Of a stretch of DNA of 31,922 bases, positions 1 to 11,917 are shown one piece after another. Every line of letters starts with the position of its first letter. Position 1 is the first letter of the stretch. The notes below the pieces were generated by a model. It was not told where the DNA came from, made no database searches, and saw only the letters and a program-made list of their open reading frames with translations. A program made the translations under genes and the position numbers. Source of the stretch: a virus; the IMG/VR virus record IMGVR_UViG_3300025671_000286, positions 1 through 31,922 of that record. One strand, given 5' to 3'.

Positions 1-311
1 ACTTGTCTATTGCTCTGTATGATTCCGCTGGTAAACACCTTGATCCTGAAGTAAAAGTATATGGAGGTAGCACAGTTAATGTAGCGTTCCGTCCTAAGTT
101 CTGGTACACAGCATCGATGGGATTCGGAGTATCGTTTGAGTTGCAAGCAGTACAAGTCCTTAAACTTGGAGAAGGTGGAGTATCCAGTATCGCAGCATCT
201 GCGTTCGGATTCACTACTGAAGAAGAAGGATTTGTTAATGGCGGTGAAAACTTAGAGGGTGGATTCGATGCGGAAGAAACGGAAGAAGAAATCCTGTCGT
301 CGAACTTCTAA
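1..311 (+). CDS. Single-stranded DNA-binding protein, C-terminal part
   Basis: The gene enters from the left edge already in frame (the first two bases finish a codon), so only about the last 103 residues are visible. The visible part contains a beta-rich stretch with FWYTASMGFGVSF and LQAVQVLKLGEG, which I associate with the DUF2815/Enc34-type phage ssDNA-binding fold, followed by a disordered Gly/Glu-rich tail. The protein ends in a cluster of Glu and then a terminal Phe, the arrangement that T7 gp2.5 uses to contact polymerase and primase-helicase. Its position directly before endonuclease I matches T7 gene 2.5. Inferred role: coat ssDNA and coordinate the replisome. It overlaps the next gene by 44 nt. 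Product class is fairly sure; the exact family is less so because the N-terminus is missing. Confidence 0.8.
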   Translation, partial: LSIALYDSAGKHLDPEVKVYGGSTVNVAFRPKFWYTASMGFGVSFELQAVQVLKLGEGGVSSIAASAFGFTTEEEGFVNGGENLEGGFDAEETEEEILSSNF

Positions 312-777
312 TTACAGATCAGGCTTCGAAGAAAAGTTAGCATCACAGCTTAGGCGTGGTGGTGTCAGCTTTCAGTACGAGACTTTGAAGTTGGAGTATA
401 CTAAGACTGCAACCTACACACCTGACTTTATCGTTGGTGATATTATCATCGAAGCTAAAGGAGTATGGACAGTAGAAGATCGTAAGAAACATTTGTTGGT
501 ACGAGAGCAACATCCACATCTAGATATTAGATTGGTGTTTCAGAATGCGAGAAACAAAATCCGTAAAGGAAGCGACACCACCTACGCAGCTTGGTGCGAA
601 AAGAAAGGAATAAAATATGCACACCAAACAATACCTAAGTCATGGCTTTTATCAAAACACACCATGACTGTCCCGACTGCGGAGCAAGTGATGCCTGTTC
701 CACCAACGACGACGGGAGTACACACTGCTTCTCATGTAATGAACACAGAGGTAGACATGGAGGGAGAGCTAGAGTGA
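268..777 (+). CDS. T7-type endonuclease I (Holliday junction resolvase, gp3-like)
   Basis: Predicted 169-residue junction-resolving nuclease that would cut branched replication and packaging intermediates and degrade host DNA. The catalytic set of T7 endonuclease I is visible: Glu21 in SGFEEK, Asp53 in TYTPDF, and Glu62 and Lys64 in IIIEAKG, followed by the family-typical DRKKHLLVREQHP. T7 gp3 has 149 residues. The conserved core here ends at about residue 126 (IPKSW), and the last ~44 residues are read entirely inside the next gene, out of frame. I chose ATG 268 over an in-frame GTG at 259 because a GAGGGTGG-like ribosome site lies just upstream and family members start close to this point. 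It overlaps the SSB gene by 44 nt and the primase gene by 136 nt. Confidence 0.93.
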   Translation: MRKKRKKKSCRRTSNYRSGFEEKLASQLRRGGVSFQYETLKLEYTKTATYTPDFIVGDIIIEAKGVWTVEDRKKHLLVREQHPHLDIRLVFQNARNKIRKGSDTTYAAWCEKKGIKYAHQTIPKSWLLSKHTMTVPTAEQVMPVPPTTTGVHTASHVMNTEVDMEGELE

Positions 778-2231
778 CAGACACAACACCGAGTGATTTT
801 GCACAAGGCAAACCAGAGTCTATACCTGCGAGAGGATTAAACGAAGATACCTGTAAGAAGTGGGGATACTGGAGAGGAGAGTATAGAAACAAAGGAGTAC
901 AGATAGCTAACTATCGTAATAAAGATGGTGCTATCATGGGTCAAAAGATACGATTCGCTGACAAGTCTTTCGCTACTACAGGTACGATTAAAGGTCTATA
1001 CGGTCAGCATTTATGGAGAGATGGAGGTCGTCGCCTAATAATATGTGAGGGTGAGATCGACGCTTTATCTGTGTCACAAATCCTAGACAATCGCTGGGCG
1101 GTGGTATCAATACCGAATGGTGCAGCTAGTAGTATGCAAAACTTTAAGCATGCTTTAGATTGGGTCGAGCGTTACGAGAAAGTAATATTCTGTTTTGATA
1201 ACGACGACACAGGAAGAAAGGGTGCAGCAAGTTGTGCTAGTATGCTAAGTCCCGGTAAGGCACACATCGCAGAGCTACCACTAAAGGATGCTAACGATAT
1301 GTTATTAGCAGGTAGATCAAAGGAACTAGTAGACTGCTTGTTTGACGCTCGTGAGTACAGACCGGACGGTATCGTAAACGGTAAGGAGTTGTGGGATGTT
1401 ATCAGCCACAAGGAGGAACACAAAAGCAAACCGTATCCGTTTATCGGACTGAATCACATAACACATGGCATGAGACTAGGAGAACTTGTTACTGTTACTG
1501 CTGGTAGTGGTATCGGTAAGAGTCTGTTCTGTCGTGAGATAGCACACCATCTGTTAGGACTGGGTGAGACGGTAGGTTATATAGCTCTTGAAGAATCTGT
1601 CAGGCGTACAGCACTAGGTATCCTTGGTATTCACATGAACAAACCACTACACCTTGACGATGATATGTTAGATGAGAAGGAGATGAGACCTGCGTTCGAT
1701 AAGACTGTTGGCAACGGTAAGTTCTACACCTACGATCACTTCGGGAGTATGGAGTCCGACAATCTTCTGTCCAAAATAAGGTACTTAATTAAGGGCTTTG
1801 ATTGTAAGTGGATATTCTTAGATCACCTATCGATTGTTGTCAGTGGGATACAGGGAGACGATGAACGCAGACTGATTGATAATACTATGACCAAGCTACG
1901 ATCTCTAGTTGAGGAGACAGGGTGCGGTATGGTATTGGTCAGTCACTTGAAGCGTGTGGATACTGGACATGAAGAGGGTGGACGAGTAAGTCTGCACCAC
2001 CTCCGAGGGTCACAAGCAATCGCACAGCTATCGGACATGGTCATCGGACTGGAACGCAACCAACAAAGCGACAGACTATCTAACGAAACAAAAGTAAGAG
2101 TACTGAAGAATCGATTCAGCGGTGAGACCGGACACTGTAGTACATTGTATTACAACTGTGATACAGGTAGGTGCACCGAGGAGGAGAGGGCTAGTACCTT
2201 CAATGAAGAAACAAATAATGAACCATTCTAA
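642..2231 (+). CDS. DNA primase-helicase (T7 gp4-like)
   Basis: Bifunctional replicative primase and hexameric helicase, 529 residues (T7 gp4A: 566). Order of domains: N-terminal zinc-binding domain with CPDC and CFSC pairs (about residues 10-35); TOPRIM primase domain with CEGEIDALS (about 135-143) and DNDDTG; linker; RecA-like helicase with Walker A AGSGIGKS (about 287-294), Walker B ending IFLDH (about 390-395), and the motif HLRGSQAIAQLSD. The C-terminus is acidic and ends in Phe (NEEPF-like), as in T7 gp4, where that tail binds the polymerase. The start at 642 is fixed by the need to include the zinc-binding domain; no strong ribosome site precedes it, so translation is probably coupled to the overlapping endonuclease I gene. 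Confidence 0.96.
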   Translation: MAFIKTHHDCPDCGASDACSTNDDGSTHCFSCNEHRGRHGGRARVTDTTPSDFAQGKPESIPARGLNEDTCKKWGYWRGEYRNKGVQIANYRNKDGAIMGQKIRFADKSFATTGTIKGLYGQHLWRDGGRRLIICEGEIDALSVSQILDNRWAVVSIPNGAASSMQNFKHALDWVERYEKVIFCFDNDDTGRKGAASCASMLSPGKAHIAELPLKDANDMLLAGRSKELVDCLFDAREYRPDGIVNGKELWDVISHKEEHKSKPYPFIGLNHITHGMRLGELVTVTAGSGIGKSLFCREIAHHLLGLGETVGYIALEESVRRTALGILGIHMNKPLHLDDDMLDEKEMRPAFDKTVGNGKFYTYDHFGSMESDNLLSKIRYLIKGFDCKWIFLDHLSIVVSGIQGDDERRLIDNTMTKLRSLVEETGCGMVLVSHLKRVDTGHEEGGRVSLHHLRGSQAIAQLSDMVIGLERNQQSDRLSNETKVRVLKNRFSGETGHCSTLYYNCDTGRCTEEERASTFNEETNNEPF

Positions 2232-2239
2232 AAACAAAT

Positions 2240-4114
2240 ATGAGAACACTATTCTTTGATATAGAAACAAATGCTCTTGAGGACTTCACTAATCTGACGG
2301 ACTTACACACTGTACACTGCTTGTCTGTGTACGATCCAATGACTCCGAAGATGGTGACATTTGCGGGAGATAGTATACACCGTGGACTGACAGCACTAGC
2401 AGAAGCAGACCGTATCGTCGGACACAATGTTATTAAGTTTGATATACCTGCTTTGAAGAAGCTGTACGGATTCTCCCCGCCTCTTGTTAAAGTAGTAGAT
2501 ACCTTAGTATTATCTAGGTGTATCTTCTCTGACCTACGCAACGAGGACTTCGGTCGTAATAACTTCGATCCTAAACTTGTAGGTAGTCACAGTCTGAAAG
2601 CTTGGGGACACCGGATGGGTAAAGCTACGAAGCTGACATACGGAGAAGAGGACGGTGCGTTCGATCACTATAATGAAGAGATGAAGAAGTACTGTGAGAG
2701 AGACTGTATAGTTACACAGTTGTTGTACGATTATTTGATTAAGCAGGACCCTAGTAATGTAATGATGAGCATCGAGCATTGGTTCGCATTTATCATCGCT
2801 CAACAAGAACGGCACGGATTCAGCTTTGATCTTGATAAAGCAGACAAGTTAACCGCTAAGCTGACATCTATTCGTGCTGAGTTGAAGGACGAGTTGCAAC
2901 AGATGGTATCACCCAAGGTGGAAGAGATGAAGAGTCCAGCTGGTTGGGTGTTACAATTAGACAGAGAAGATGGAGTAGAACTTATCAAAGCTGAGACCAA
3001 GGTAAAACTAAAGGAGATATTGAAAGCTAGGGGTCTGAAGCAGACCTTGTTAAAGGAAGCTAAGAAGAGCGGTAACAAACAAAAGACTACACTGTTTAAT
3101 CCTGGTAGTAGACCACAGATAGCAGCAGCATTAGCTGACCTCGGATACGAGTTACCAGTAGAACAAGATGCTACCACACCTAAAGTAGATGAGGGCGTAC
3201 TGAAGAAGATCGATCATCCAATAGCAGCTAAGTTGTTAGACTATCTCTTGGTACAGAAAAGACTTGGTCAGTTAGCAGAGGGAGAACAAGCGTGGTTGAA
3301 GCTGGCTAAGAACGGACGGATACACGGAGCGGTGAATACAAATGGAGCAGTGACGGGAAGATGTACACACAGCAATCCAAATGTAGCACAGGTTCCAGCT
3401 TGTCGTGTACCGTATGGTGAAGAGTGTCGGGATTTATTCGGTGCGGGTAGTGGTATGAAGTTGGTGGGATGTGATGCTAGTGGGTTGGAGCTACGGATGT
3501 TAGCACATTACCTAGCATTCTACGACGGTGGTCAGTACGGAAAGATCGTAACAGAAGGAGACATCCATACATTCAACATGGAACGAGCAGGGTTAGACAA
3601 CAGAGACCAAGCTAAGACAATGATCTATGCTCTACTCTATGGTGCTGGACCAAAACTCATGGGTGAAATCGTAGGAGGTGGTGCTAAAGAAGGAGTGCAA
3701 CTGAAGCGTAAGTTCTTAGATAACCTACCAGCTCTGAAGAGACTACAAGATGCTATCCAAAAGAAAGTAGAGAACGGTGGTACATTGATGGGACTGGACG
3801 GTCGGGTGTTACGGATACGCAGTAGTCACGCAGCACTGAACATGTTGTTACAATCAGCCGGAGCAGTGTGTATGAAGGTAGCTTTGATACAGTTATATCA
3901 TGCACTCGGTAAGAGTAAGTGGCAGCACGGTAGAGAGTATGCATTTGTTGCTAACATCCACGACGAGTTCCAAGCAGAAGTAATACCACAACACGCAGAT
4001 GACTTCGGTAAGTTAGCAGTGAAAGCGATTCGTGTAGCTGGTAAAGAACTGAAGCTGAATGTACAACTCGACGGTGAGTACAAAGTAGGTACAACATGGG
4101 CGGAGACTCATTGA
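2240..4114 (+). CDS. Family A DNA polymerase (T7 gp5-like)
   Basis: Replicative polymerase with 3'-5' proofreading, 624 residues. The exonuclease domain begins at once, with FDIETN (Asp7, Glu9), HNVIKFD and a later YCERDC motif. Polymerase motif A is CDASGLELRML (Asp412), motif B is RDQAKTMIYALLYGAG (Arg455, Lys459, Tyr463) and motif C is IHDEF (Asp575). The segment FNPGSR...QKRLGQLAEG and GAVTGRCTHSNPN closely follow T7 gp5. T7 gp5 has 704 residues; the shortfall of about 80 falls mainly before FNPGSR, where T7 carries the thioredoxin-binding loop, so this enzyme probably uses no thioredoxin or a different clamp (inference). Eight bases separate it from the primase gene and one base from the next gene. 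Confidence 0.97.
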   Translation: MRTLFFDIETNALEDFTNLTDLHTVHCLSVYDPMTPKMVTFAGDSIHRGLTALAEADRIVGHNVIKFDIPALKKLYGFSPPLVKVVDTLVLSRCIFSDLRNEDFGRNNFDPKLVGSHSLKAWGHRMGKATKLTYGEEDGAFDHYNEEMKKYCERDCIVTQLLYDYLIKQDPSNVMMSIEHWFAFIIAQQERHGFSFDLDKADKLTAKLTSIRAELKDELQQMVSPKVEEMKSPAGWVLQLDREDGVELIKAETKVKLKEILKARGLKQTLLKEAKKSGNKQKTTLFNPGSRPQIAAALADLGYELPVEQDATTPKVDEGVLKKIDHPIAAKLLDYLLVQKRLGQLAEGEQAWLKLAKNGRIHGAVNTNGAVTGRCTHSNPNVAQVPACRVPYGEECRDLFGAGSGMKLVGCDASGLELRMLAHYLAFYDGGQYGKIVTEGDIHTFNMERAGLDNRDQAKTMIYALLYGAGPKLMGEIVGGGAKEGVQLKRKFLDNLPALKRLQDAIQKKVENGGTLMGLDGRVLRIRSSHAALNMLLQSAGAVCMKVALIQLYHALGKSKWQHGREYAFVANIHDEFQAEVIPQHADDFGKLAVKAIRVAGKELKLNVQLDGEYKVGTTWAETH

Positions 4115-4115
4115 T

Positions 4116-4553
4116 ATGAAGACAGATACTTGTACTAAATGTGGAGAGACCAAAGCACTTGAAGAGTTCACACGCTGTAAGAAATCTAAAACAGGATACA
4201 GAAAAACTTGTAAGGATTGTAGGCGTGTACAACAACGCAAGTGGATGGATGAAAACTCAGATCACTTCAAAGCGTTGTGTCGTAAGCAGCATCTGAAAGT
4301 TAGATACGGAATAACACCTGAAGATTATGATGTTATGCTACAGAAACAGAAGGGTAAGTGTGCTATCTGTGATAGGCACGGTCAGAGTCCTGGTAACAAA
4401 AGATTGTTAGATGTAGACCACTGCCACAAGACAGGGAAGATAAGAGGTTTGTTATGTAACAGATGTAATCAATCAATGGGTAAAGTTAAAGACGACATTG
4501 ATCTGTTAAAGAAGTTTCTAGCTTACCTAATTAGTTGGGAGTATAGAGATTAA
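4116..4553 (+). CDS. Endonuclease VII-like HNH (beta-beta-alpha metal) nuclease
   Basis: 145 residues. The C-terminal half is a recombination endonuclease VII (Endonuclease_7) domain: zinc pairs Cys82/Cys85 (CAIC) and Cys114/Cys117 (CNRC) flank DVDHCHKTGKIRGLLC, where Asp101-His102 would be the catalytic pair. The N-terminus carries a separate small zinc ribbon (Cys6/Cys9 and Cys32/Cys35). This layout is common in free-standing phage HNH proteins, some of which act as homing nucleases; F-CphI of cyanophage S-PM2 is a characterised endonuclease VII-like example. It begins one base after the polymerase stop. Because a T7-type resolvase is already present at 268-777, junction resolution would be redundant, and a homing or host-DNA-cutting role is as likely. 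Confidence 0.88.
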   Translation: MKTDTCTKCGETKALEEFTRCKKSKTGYRKTCKDCRRVQQRKWMDENSDHFKALCRKQHLKVRYGITPEDYDVMLQKQKGKCAICDRHGQSPGNKRLLDVDHCHKTGKIRGLLCNRCNQSMGKVKDDIDLLKKFLAYLISWEYRD

Positions 4554-4555
4554 TT

Positions 4556-5017
4556 ATGGACGAGATACAATACGACATGTACACTACCCTTGCATACCTC
4601 TATGATACACAAGACCTTACCATGCCATCATCAAACGCACAACGGATAGGAGCCATCGCAGAGACACGCTTCATAACAGAATGTTTAGAGCGGGACTTTG
4701 AACCACACACTCCAACGACTCCTATGCCGTGGGACTATATCGTACACTGTCCGGCAGGTGATCTAAAGGTACAAGTAAAGAGTACATCTTGTAAGACTGA
4801 ACGGTGTTACAATGTAAACACAGCAAGCGGGTGTACATCGAAGGAGCATATGTCTGACCTCATTGATGTCGTTGCTATTTATCTAGCACCTTTAAACGAG
4901 TGGTGGATGATACCTAGAAATATAATTACATCTATGACAATTCGTTTGTATCCAGAGAACCCAAGTAAGAGTAAATACAAGAAATATCAAAACAATTGGA
5001 GCGTATACTATGAGTAA
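4556..5017 (+). CDS. Putative PD-(D/E)XK-fold nuclease
   Basis: 153 residues, resembling the PDDEXK_5 group that includes the cyanobacterial intron endonuclease I-Ssp6803I. Visible pattern: IGAIAE with Glu36, then PWDYIV with Asp60, then LKVQVKSTS with Gln73-x-Lys75, which is the E...D...(E/Q)XK order expected of the fold with Gln in place of the usual acid. The rest (SDLIDVVAIYLAP, WWMIPRN) fits the strands that follow the active site. The ATG lies two bases after the upstream stop; a second ATG at 4622 would still keep the whole motif set. It overlaps the exonuclease gene by 8 nt (ATGAGTAA). It could be a second homing-type or restriction-like enzyme; the family assignment is from pattern only. 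Confidence 0.65.
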   Translation: MDEIQYDMYTTLAYLYDTQDLTMPSSNAQRIGAIAETRFITECLERDFEPHTPTTPMPWDYIVHCPAGDLKVQVKSTSCKTERCYNVNTASGCTSKEHMSDLIDVVAIYLAPLNEWWMIPRNIITSMTIRLYPENPSKSKYKKYQNNWSVYYE

Positions 5018-6304: not shown

Positions 6305-6517
6305 ATGTGTTTCGGATCATCCACACCACCACCACCTCCTCCTCCGCCTCCACCACCTCCTCCTCCAACGGCTACCGCTGAGAGAGTAGAGCCTACAAGA
6401 GCTAGAGCAGCTAGTACTACAATGGGTAAGAGAAGAGGAACTCGTCAGTTAACAGTGCGTCGTCCTACATTAGGTATGGGTGGTCAGACCGGAACCGGAG
6501 TACAGCTTTCACAGTAA
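6305..6517 (+). CDS. Polyproline virion-associated protein (T7 gp6.7-like)
   Basis: 70 residues beginning MCFGSST, followed by 14 consecutive prolines (6326-6367, written with CCA, CCT and CCG codons) and then an Arg/Thr/Gly-rich disordered tail. T7 gp6.7, a small ejected virion protein encoded at the same map position, also begins MCF and is otherwise disordered and basic, so the equivalence is supported by start, size and position rather than by alignment. The gp14-like protein later in this window also starts MCF. Such a long proline run should stall ribosomes unless elongation factor P rescues them. Confidence 0.72.
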   Translation: MCFGSSTPPPPPPPPPPPPPPTATAERVEPTRARAASTTMGKRRGTRQLTVRRPTLGMGGQTGTGVQLSQ

Positions 6518-11070: not shown

Positions 11071-11445
11071 ATGATAAAGTCTATGGCGACAGAACTAGGT
11101 GATAATGTACAAGTAAAAGCTAACCTTGCATTCATGGCTAAAGTAATAGCTGTGGTAGGTAGCGTGGTTTGGGGATACAGTGTTATATGGAACAAGATCA
11201 ATGAGTTGGATAACGGACTTGGTCGAGTACAACACGAGGGTACTATGCTTGGAGACTTGTCAGCACGGATGATGCACATAGAGAAGTTTGCAGAACAATC
11301 CAAAGCAGACCTAGATCATCTGTTGGAAATGCAAGATGCACCGATAACATCAGACCATCAACAGTTTGAACGATTGAAGTATCTTGAGAAAGAGTTAGAT
11401 ATTCTACGAGCTAAAGTAGATCAAATGAGAGTAGGAGCGTGGTGA
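11071..11445 (+). CDS. Membrane protein with one TM segment and a coiled coil
   Basis: 124 residues. A hydrophobic segment at about residues 19-40 (LAFMAKVIAVVGSVVWGYSVIW) is followed by a long charged helical region with heptad spacing (LEKELDILRAKVDQM near the end). This layout, an N-terminal anchor plus periplasmic helix, is found in Rz-type spanins and in some small phage membrane proteins, but no family is recognised. ATG 11071 has AGGGG nine bases upstream; ATG 11083 is an alternative start with a weaker site. The gene lies between scaffold and capsid, an unusual place for lysis genes. Confidence 0.7.
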   Translation: MIKSMATELGDNVQVKANLAFMAKVIAVVGSVVWGYSVIWNKINELDNGLGRVQHEGTMLGDLSARMMHIEKFAEQSKADLDHLLEMQDAPITSDHQQFERLKYLEKELDILRAKVDQMRVGAW

Positions 11446-11449
11446 AAAG

Positions 11450-11917
11450 ATGGGTGAATTACTTATGTTATTTATTACGGGCGGTGGTAGCACTGCTATG
11501 GGGGCGATCCTTAAAGGTGTGTTTGGATATGTGTTTGAAGCCCGTCAACAAAAGCACGATCTTGAAATGGCGAGAGAGGCTCGTAACAACGATAATTTCC
11601 TTAGACTACAAGCTAACCTCCATAAAGAAGGTGCTGGGGAGTTTGTTTCTTTTACTCGTCGTATTCTTGCTGTTATCGGGGTGTCTACGCTCTGTGCGTG
11701 TATCATCATGTGTACCCTCTTCCCCACCGCAGAAATCGTCACCATCACCAACGCAGACGGAGAGGGAGTCAATCAATTCTTCTTTGGACTTATCAGTTGG
11801 CAAGCAGCTCAAGAGCCACTCACTATATCTTCTGGACACATCAGCCTTATGGGATGCACAGTAATTCTACCTTGTATCCTTGGTTTCTACTTTGGTCCAA
11901 GTGGTCGAAGAGGTTGA
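11450..11917 (+). CDS. Multi-pass membrane protein, holin candidate
   Basis: 155 residues. Three hydrophobic stretches are visible: residues 1-30 (LLMLFITGGGSTAMGAILKGVF, amphipathic), about 68-92 (RRILAVIGVSTLCACIIMCTLF) and about 127-149 (HISLMGCTVILPCILGFYFG), the last ending in a short basic tail. Between the first two is a charged helical region. Three membrane passes and small size fit a class I holin or the GTA_holin_3TM type, but I cannot confirm the family. It follows the coiled-coil membrane protein by four bases. A second long frame overlaps it (see findings). Confidence 0.7.
   Translation: MGELLMLFITGGGSTAMGAILKGVFGYVFEARQQKHDLEMAREARNNDNFLRLQANLHKEGAGEFVSFTRRILAVIGVSTLCACIIMCTLFPTAEIVTITNADGEGVNQFFFGLISWQAAQEPLTISSGHISLMGCTVILPCILGFYFGPSGRRG

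Follow-up and report, generated by a model that had tools for sequence, protein, structure and literature searches.

Overlapping endonuclease I and primase genes

The window analyzed here is a stretch of viral DNA of 31,922 nucleotides (IMG/VR record IMGVR_UViG_3300025671_000286, positions 1 to 31,922). Its genes begin, in order, with the 3' part of an SSB gene, an endonuclease I gene, a primase-helicase gene (642-2231), and a DNA polymerase gene (2240-4114). The opening gene fragment gave no match in Pfam and is assigned as a probable gp2.5-like SSB from its position and acidic end. The gene for endonuclease I, of the T7 gp3 family, occupies positions 268 to 777 of the plus strand, and an SD-like site (-7.3 kcal/mol) precedes its ATG at 268. 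The profile of phage endonuclease I (PF05367, Phage_endo_I) matched residues 9 to 134 of the 172-amino-acid ORF with an E value of 5.8e-49, and this match spans the core. The conserved core runs to a Trp codon at 643-645 and is followed by a tail (646-774), out of frame with the primase, and the stop codon TGA (775-777). The full-length primase-helicase of 529 amino acids, of the T7 gp4A type, is encoded on the same strand at 642-2231. Its ORF matched Helic-prim_T7_N (7.5e-22), Toprim, and DnaB_C in Pfam, and it contains the zinc domain, the RNA polymerase/Toprim domain, and the DnaB-type helicase of a T7-type primase-helicase.

The two genes overlap by 136 nt (642-777, plus strand), with the endonuclease I frame at +1 relative to that of the primase. 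The Trp codon TGG (643-645) ends the motif IPKSW, and the primase ATG (642-644) borrows its TG. A stop codon is found in the primase frame at 636, just upstream; therefore, 642 is the only possible start (ATG, GTG, or TTG) ahead of the first zinc cysteine. No Shine-Dalgarno (SD) sequence accompanies this ATG (SD energy, +2.4). The tail of endonuclease I overprints the zinc-binding domain of the primase, whose cysteines C10, C13, C29, and C32 (CPDC...CFSC in translation) are encoded at 669-737. A preliminary description of this DNA had proposed the 136-nt out-of-frame overlap and a primase start built from the Trp codon of the conserved IP-x-x-W motif, and both can be read directly from the sequence. 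It also had endonuclease I reading on for 45 codons; the tail indeed lies inside the zinc-domain region, but between the Trp and the stop there are 43 codons, or 44 if the Trp is counted.

A second overlap, of 44 nt, joins the 3' end of the SSB ORF, which ends at 311, to the start of endonuclease I (268-311, plus strand). The two frames of this GAA-rich tract encode the acidic tail of SSB (AEETEEEILSSNF) and the basic N terminus of the endonuclease (MRKKRKKKSCRR). In annotated roseophages and pelagiphages, the SSB and endonuclease genes overlap by about 26 to 65 nt. Elsewhere in the window, the DNA polymerase and exonuclease genes are separated by two additional nuclease genes, Endonuclease_7 and PDDEXK_5 (4116-5017), and a short ORF at 6305-6517 encodes 14 consecutive prolines close to its start. 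An ORF at 11439-11864 encoding a hydrophobic stretch and a lipobox-like LLSGC overlaps a membrane-protein ORF (11450-11917) in another frame. It resembles an embedded outer-membrane spanin, or may be due to chance; neither of these two ORFs gave a Pfam match.

Distribution of the overlap among related phages

A search with the endonuclease retrieved 80 IMG/VR loci, and further scans added sister subclades. Among the 80 loci, all sufficiently long ones sharing 64% identity or more kept the overlap, its frame, and the Trp/ATG junction. The tail is shared throughout the subclade of the window, so that the statement of the preliminary description that it has no family counterpart was wrong for this subclade. 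Across the clade, the overlaps measured 58, 64, 70, 73, 109, 118-136, and 148 nt. Sister subclade B has 109 or 148 nt and subclade C has 73 nt, while single loci have 58 nt (L214) or 64 nt (L226). For subclade D, the overlap is 70 nt if the primase starts at a TTG formed with the Trp codon of IPKSW, or 97 nt if an ATG farther upstream, which has an SD sequence, is used. In three loci of this subclade (L154, L157, and L158), the candidate primase starts are an ATG that draws on a more upstream Trp codon of endonuclease I (in KWC) and has an SD-like AAGGA, and the TTG from the Trp of IPKSW. The arrangement exceeds what is expected by chance, being kept by every independently assembled relative in the subclade and by sister subclades with other overlap lengths. 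In a quick tree of the primase body, all of the overlap carriers, and only these, fell on one side of a branch with an SH-aLRT value of 100. Judged from this tree, the overlap clade is a monophyletic group of marine T7-like phages represented by IMG/VR contigs. Since overlap carriers alone fill one side of this fully supported branch, the Trp/ATG junction most likely arose once. A DNA-level search of phage genomes returned short matches only, and a scan of genomes for a cellular host or prophage returned only weak Toprim matches, mostly from Flavobacteriales.

The nearest isolates share around 45 to 55% identity in the primase, and most have a lysozyme/amidase gene between endonuclease I and primase. 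This is the case for roseophages CRP-125, CRP-804, CRP-118, and CRP-403 and for pelagiphages HTVC109P, HTVC019P, and HTVC011P; lysozyme likewise sits between the two genes in T7 and T3. Amidase_2 was absent from the window and from six related records, which may be incomplete. With the same reservation about the records, a lysozyme gene moved elsewhere in the genome was rejected. The preliminary description had suggested that a deletion removed the lysozyme gene and left the upstream stop displaced. The position of lysozyme in T7, T3, and the nearest isolates, its absence from the window and the six records, and the grouping of the overlap carriers in a single supported clade agree with this claim. 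On the other hand, no deletion scar is visible at the junction, and lysozyme is missing from the site without a long overlap in HTVC134P, S-CBP1, and three further loci (L169, L250, and L257), in which the genes are separated by 1 nt. It is plausible, from these gene orders, that lysozyme loss preceded the overlap.

The endonuclease I frame ends on a putative internal start

The stop codon of endonuclease I overlaps a GTG that is codon 45 in the primase frame, as GTGA at 774-777 (plus strand), and an SD-like GGAGGG lies 9 nt 5' of this GTG, at 759-764. Initiation there would give a predicted helicase of 485 amino acids lacking the zinc domain (774-2231, plus strand), with the same anatomy as 4B of T7, T3, and K1F. 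The GTG follows the last Cys (codon 32) and leaves Toprim and helicase intact. Its SD energy of -9.8 kcal/mol was the strongest among the 179 internal ATG and GTG codons of the ten large ORFs of the window, so this candidate gp4B-type start has a ribosome-binding site of its own, one expected from the codons of the linker (P = 0.24). The end of the tail on a 4B-type start tells more than the tail itself, and the preliminary description had missed it.

The site is conserved. An ATGA or GTGA stop was found in 41/41 distinct sequences of the subclade, its in-frame Met or Val being codon 39 to 45, a few codons past the last zinc cysteine; indels shift the site within this range. The SD energy was -5.6 or lower in 38 of these 41 sequences, compared with 10.6% of 527 other internal starts, and the SD was weak (-2.4) in the other 3. 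Where the codon is Val, it was GTG in all seven sequences compared, whereas only 1 of 18 other all-Val columns was uniform. GTG makes up 13% of the Val codons of the window, and GTA at this place would end endonuclease I too. Synonymous change relative to expectation was 0.51 over codons 42 to 61, 0.75 over codons 2 to 41, and about 1 elsewhere. In subclade C, the synonymous constraint (0.64) reaches zinc-domain codons beyond its overlap; therefore, the constraint cannot be assigned to the tail. Across the subclade, local RNA structure was weaker at both starts (-3.1 and -7.5) than in the gene body (-10.8); in the window itself, it was weaker than background only at the 774 start.

These features have to be read against the primase protein. 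Given the Gly-rich linker, the SD is not unusual (P = 0.1 to 0.9; for the window, P = 0.24), and SD strength was consequently rejected as codon-level evidence. A stop exactly at the site had a probability of 0.2 to 0.66 when the primase protein was given. The stop/start coincidence and the SD are thus not independent proof of selection, because the linker protein predicts the SD, and an open frame with a start followed by A gives the stop. In sister subclades B and C, a Met or Val is found in the same linker, mostly without an SD sequence, and endonuclease I mostly stops earlier. Many genes of this phage lack an SD sequence and are presumably translated all the same.

Proposed coupling of endonuclease I and helicase translation

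Overlaps of the AUGA type with an SD sequence support termination-reinitiation (PMC6728339), and the GTGA at 774-777, conserved in the subclade, is an overlapping stop/start of this type with an SD. With the geometry of the site, its conservation, its SD strength, and its likeness to T7 4B, we lean toward a reading in which termination of endonuclease I is coupled to the start of a 4B-type helicase, the use of the internal start and the coupling both being deduced from sequence. We propose the following course of events. The endonuclease I and primase genes would have become neighbors in the marine T7-like clade, with lysozyme absent, and the primase start would have come to sit in the Trp codon that closes the conserved core of endonuclease I. 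Endonuclease I reads on from there in the +1 frame of the zinc-binding domain until the first stop. In the subclade of the window, this frame is open across the remainder of the zinc domain and stops at the GTGA or ATGA, on a putative in-frame internal start with its own SD. Ribosomes finishing endonuclease I could reinitiate there to make a helicase without the zinc domain, as in T7 gp4B, and the SD-less ATG at 642 would serve the full-length primase-helicase. The upstream endonuclease would in this way have taken over the frame of gene 4.1 of T7, and coupling would be what keeps the endonuclease frame open. A further step, which we regard as speculative and rather doubtful, is that translation of endonuclease I determines how much helicase-only protein is made relative to primase-helicase, linking recombination and replication enzymes translationally, and that gene 4.1 of T7 may itself act as a leader that couples 4B.

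Origin of the tail and alternative explanations

Neutral read-through is a less probable but serious alternative. In this case, the two genes were joined by loss, the endonuclease I stop was lost, and the frame runs to a chance stop; the ATGA or GTGA and the SD result incidentally from the linker sequence, and 4B is not produced. Several properties of the tail agree with such an origin. Its length ranges from about 19 to 49 codons across subclades and tracks the first stop encountered in the endonuclease frame, so that it varies, as the overlap lengths do, as stops arise. When the primase protein was fixed and synonymous codons were drawn by phage usage, the endonuclease frame was open to the real stop with a probability of 0.2 to 0.73 in the subclade of the window, against 2.8% for random 44-codon stretches of the large ORFs of the window in that frame; given the primase protein, the open frame is therefore not above chance. 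This probability reflects the scarcity of Leu, Ile, Val, and Met residues in the zinc domain. The SD is expected from the Gly codons, and, according to simulations, long phase-1 overlaps need no selection (PMC3887535). An AlphaFold2 model of endonuclease I was confident in the core, while residues 132 to 163 had a pLDDT below 50 and no secondary structure. The tail is best seen, from this model and these frequencies, as overprinted and passive, mostly a by-product, and probably unstructured. Neutral read-through of the whole arrangement accounts less well for the strongest internal SD of the window falling at this site, the uniform GTG, the fall in synonymous change at the internal start and downstream of it, and the matching layout of established 4B starts. 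Stop-generating codons were also absent from the subclade (0 at 30 sites, compared with 12.4 predicted by usage), although these sites are not independent, 17 of the 30 being one GTT column. This absence hints that the open frame is maintained, but shared ancestry weakens the hint.

A tail that functions as a protein in endonuclease I, for example as an acidic C-terminal peptide binding partners, is improbable. All members of the subclade have the tail, with an acidic end (E-L-E, E-P-D-E, or E-E-D-E), but its sequence is dictated by the primase frame, its length varies widely between subclades, no structure is predicted for it, and an SD followed by GAATGA or GAGTGA encodes an acidic end too. 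Selection on the tail as a protein was set aside: it is inseparable from primase constraint in this phase, and synonymous suppression is also found outside the overlap. Programmed -1 frameshifting to an endonuclease I-primase fusion is very improbable; relative to endonuclease I, the primase frame is -1 over a long shared stretch, but the scanned overlap sequences held no conserved slippery heptamer, only two scattered hits, none in that of the window, and we rejected it. An assembly or sequencing error, in favor of which nothing was found, is ruled out by the dozens of independent contigs with in-frame indels that keep the arrangement.

Significance and comparison with known systems

The two forms of T7 gp4 and the control of their ratio are an old question. 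With an upstream gene that terminates on the presumed 4B start in one branch and stops earlier in sister subclades, the clade offers a natural experiment on translational coupling of 4B, and gene 4.1 of T7 gains a testable role as a leader frame. More generally, the junction illustrates how an overlap can arise when an upstream gene is extended into a conserved domain; the cost is small here, since stops are scarce in that frame of the zinc domain. A literature search found reviews of T7 4A/4B and no paper on gene 4.1 or on the endonuclease I/primase junction.

T7 initiates a 56-kDa gp4 without the zinc domain at codon 64, which has a separate ribosome-binding site, and makes about equimolar amounts of it and the 63-kDa form (PMC9198812; PMC12593628). 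The 4B starts are ATGA in T7, ATGA in T3, and GTGA in K1F, with SD energies of -11.6, -10.3, and -11.6, respectively. Gene 4 of K1F (L194; 5639-7399) has this GTGA with a GGAGG at codon 66, and its record annotates no 4B. Among Studiervirinae, 16 of 18 4B-type starts with a strong SD have A as the next base, and the +1 frame upstream is usually open for 56 to 80 codons. The annotated gene 4.1 of T7 (11635-11757) is the +1 frame over the zinc domain, and it ends on the 4B start.

Gene 4B of T7 and the site in the window are alike in having an internal start right after the zinc domain, a strong SD (GGAGG), a start followed by A, and a +1 frame ending there. They differ in that the +1 frame is a separate small ORF, gene 4.1, in T7 and the end of endonuclease I in the window; the start in the window, whose use is predicted, is a GTG about 12 codons past the last cysteine, whereas that of T7 4B is an ATG 24 codons past it. 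Compared with the ATGA/GTGA termination-reinitiation pairs (PMC6728339), the window has the same four-base stop/start overlap behind an SD; unlike in those pairs, the downstream start lies within a gene that itself begins 132 nt farther upstream, inside the first gene. Endonuclease I of T7 (gp3), like that of the window, is a Phage_endo_I protein with a conserved core to IP-x-x-W, but its tail after the Trp is short, basic, and outside the primase gene, while that of the window is read from the primase zinc domain.
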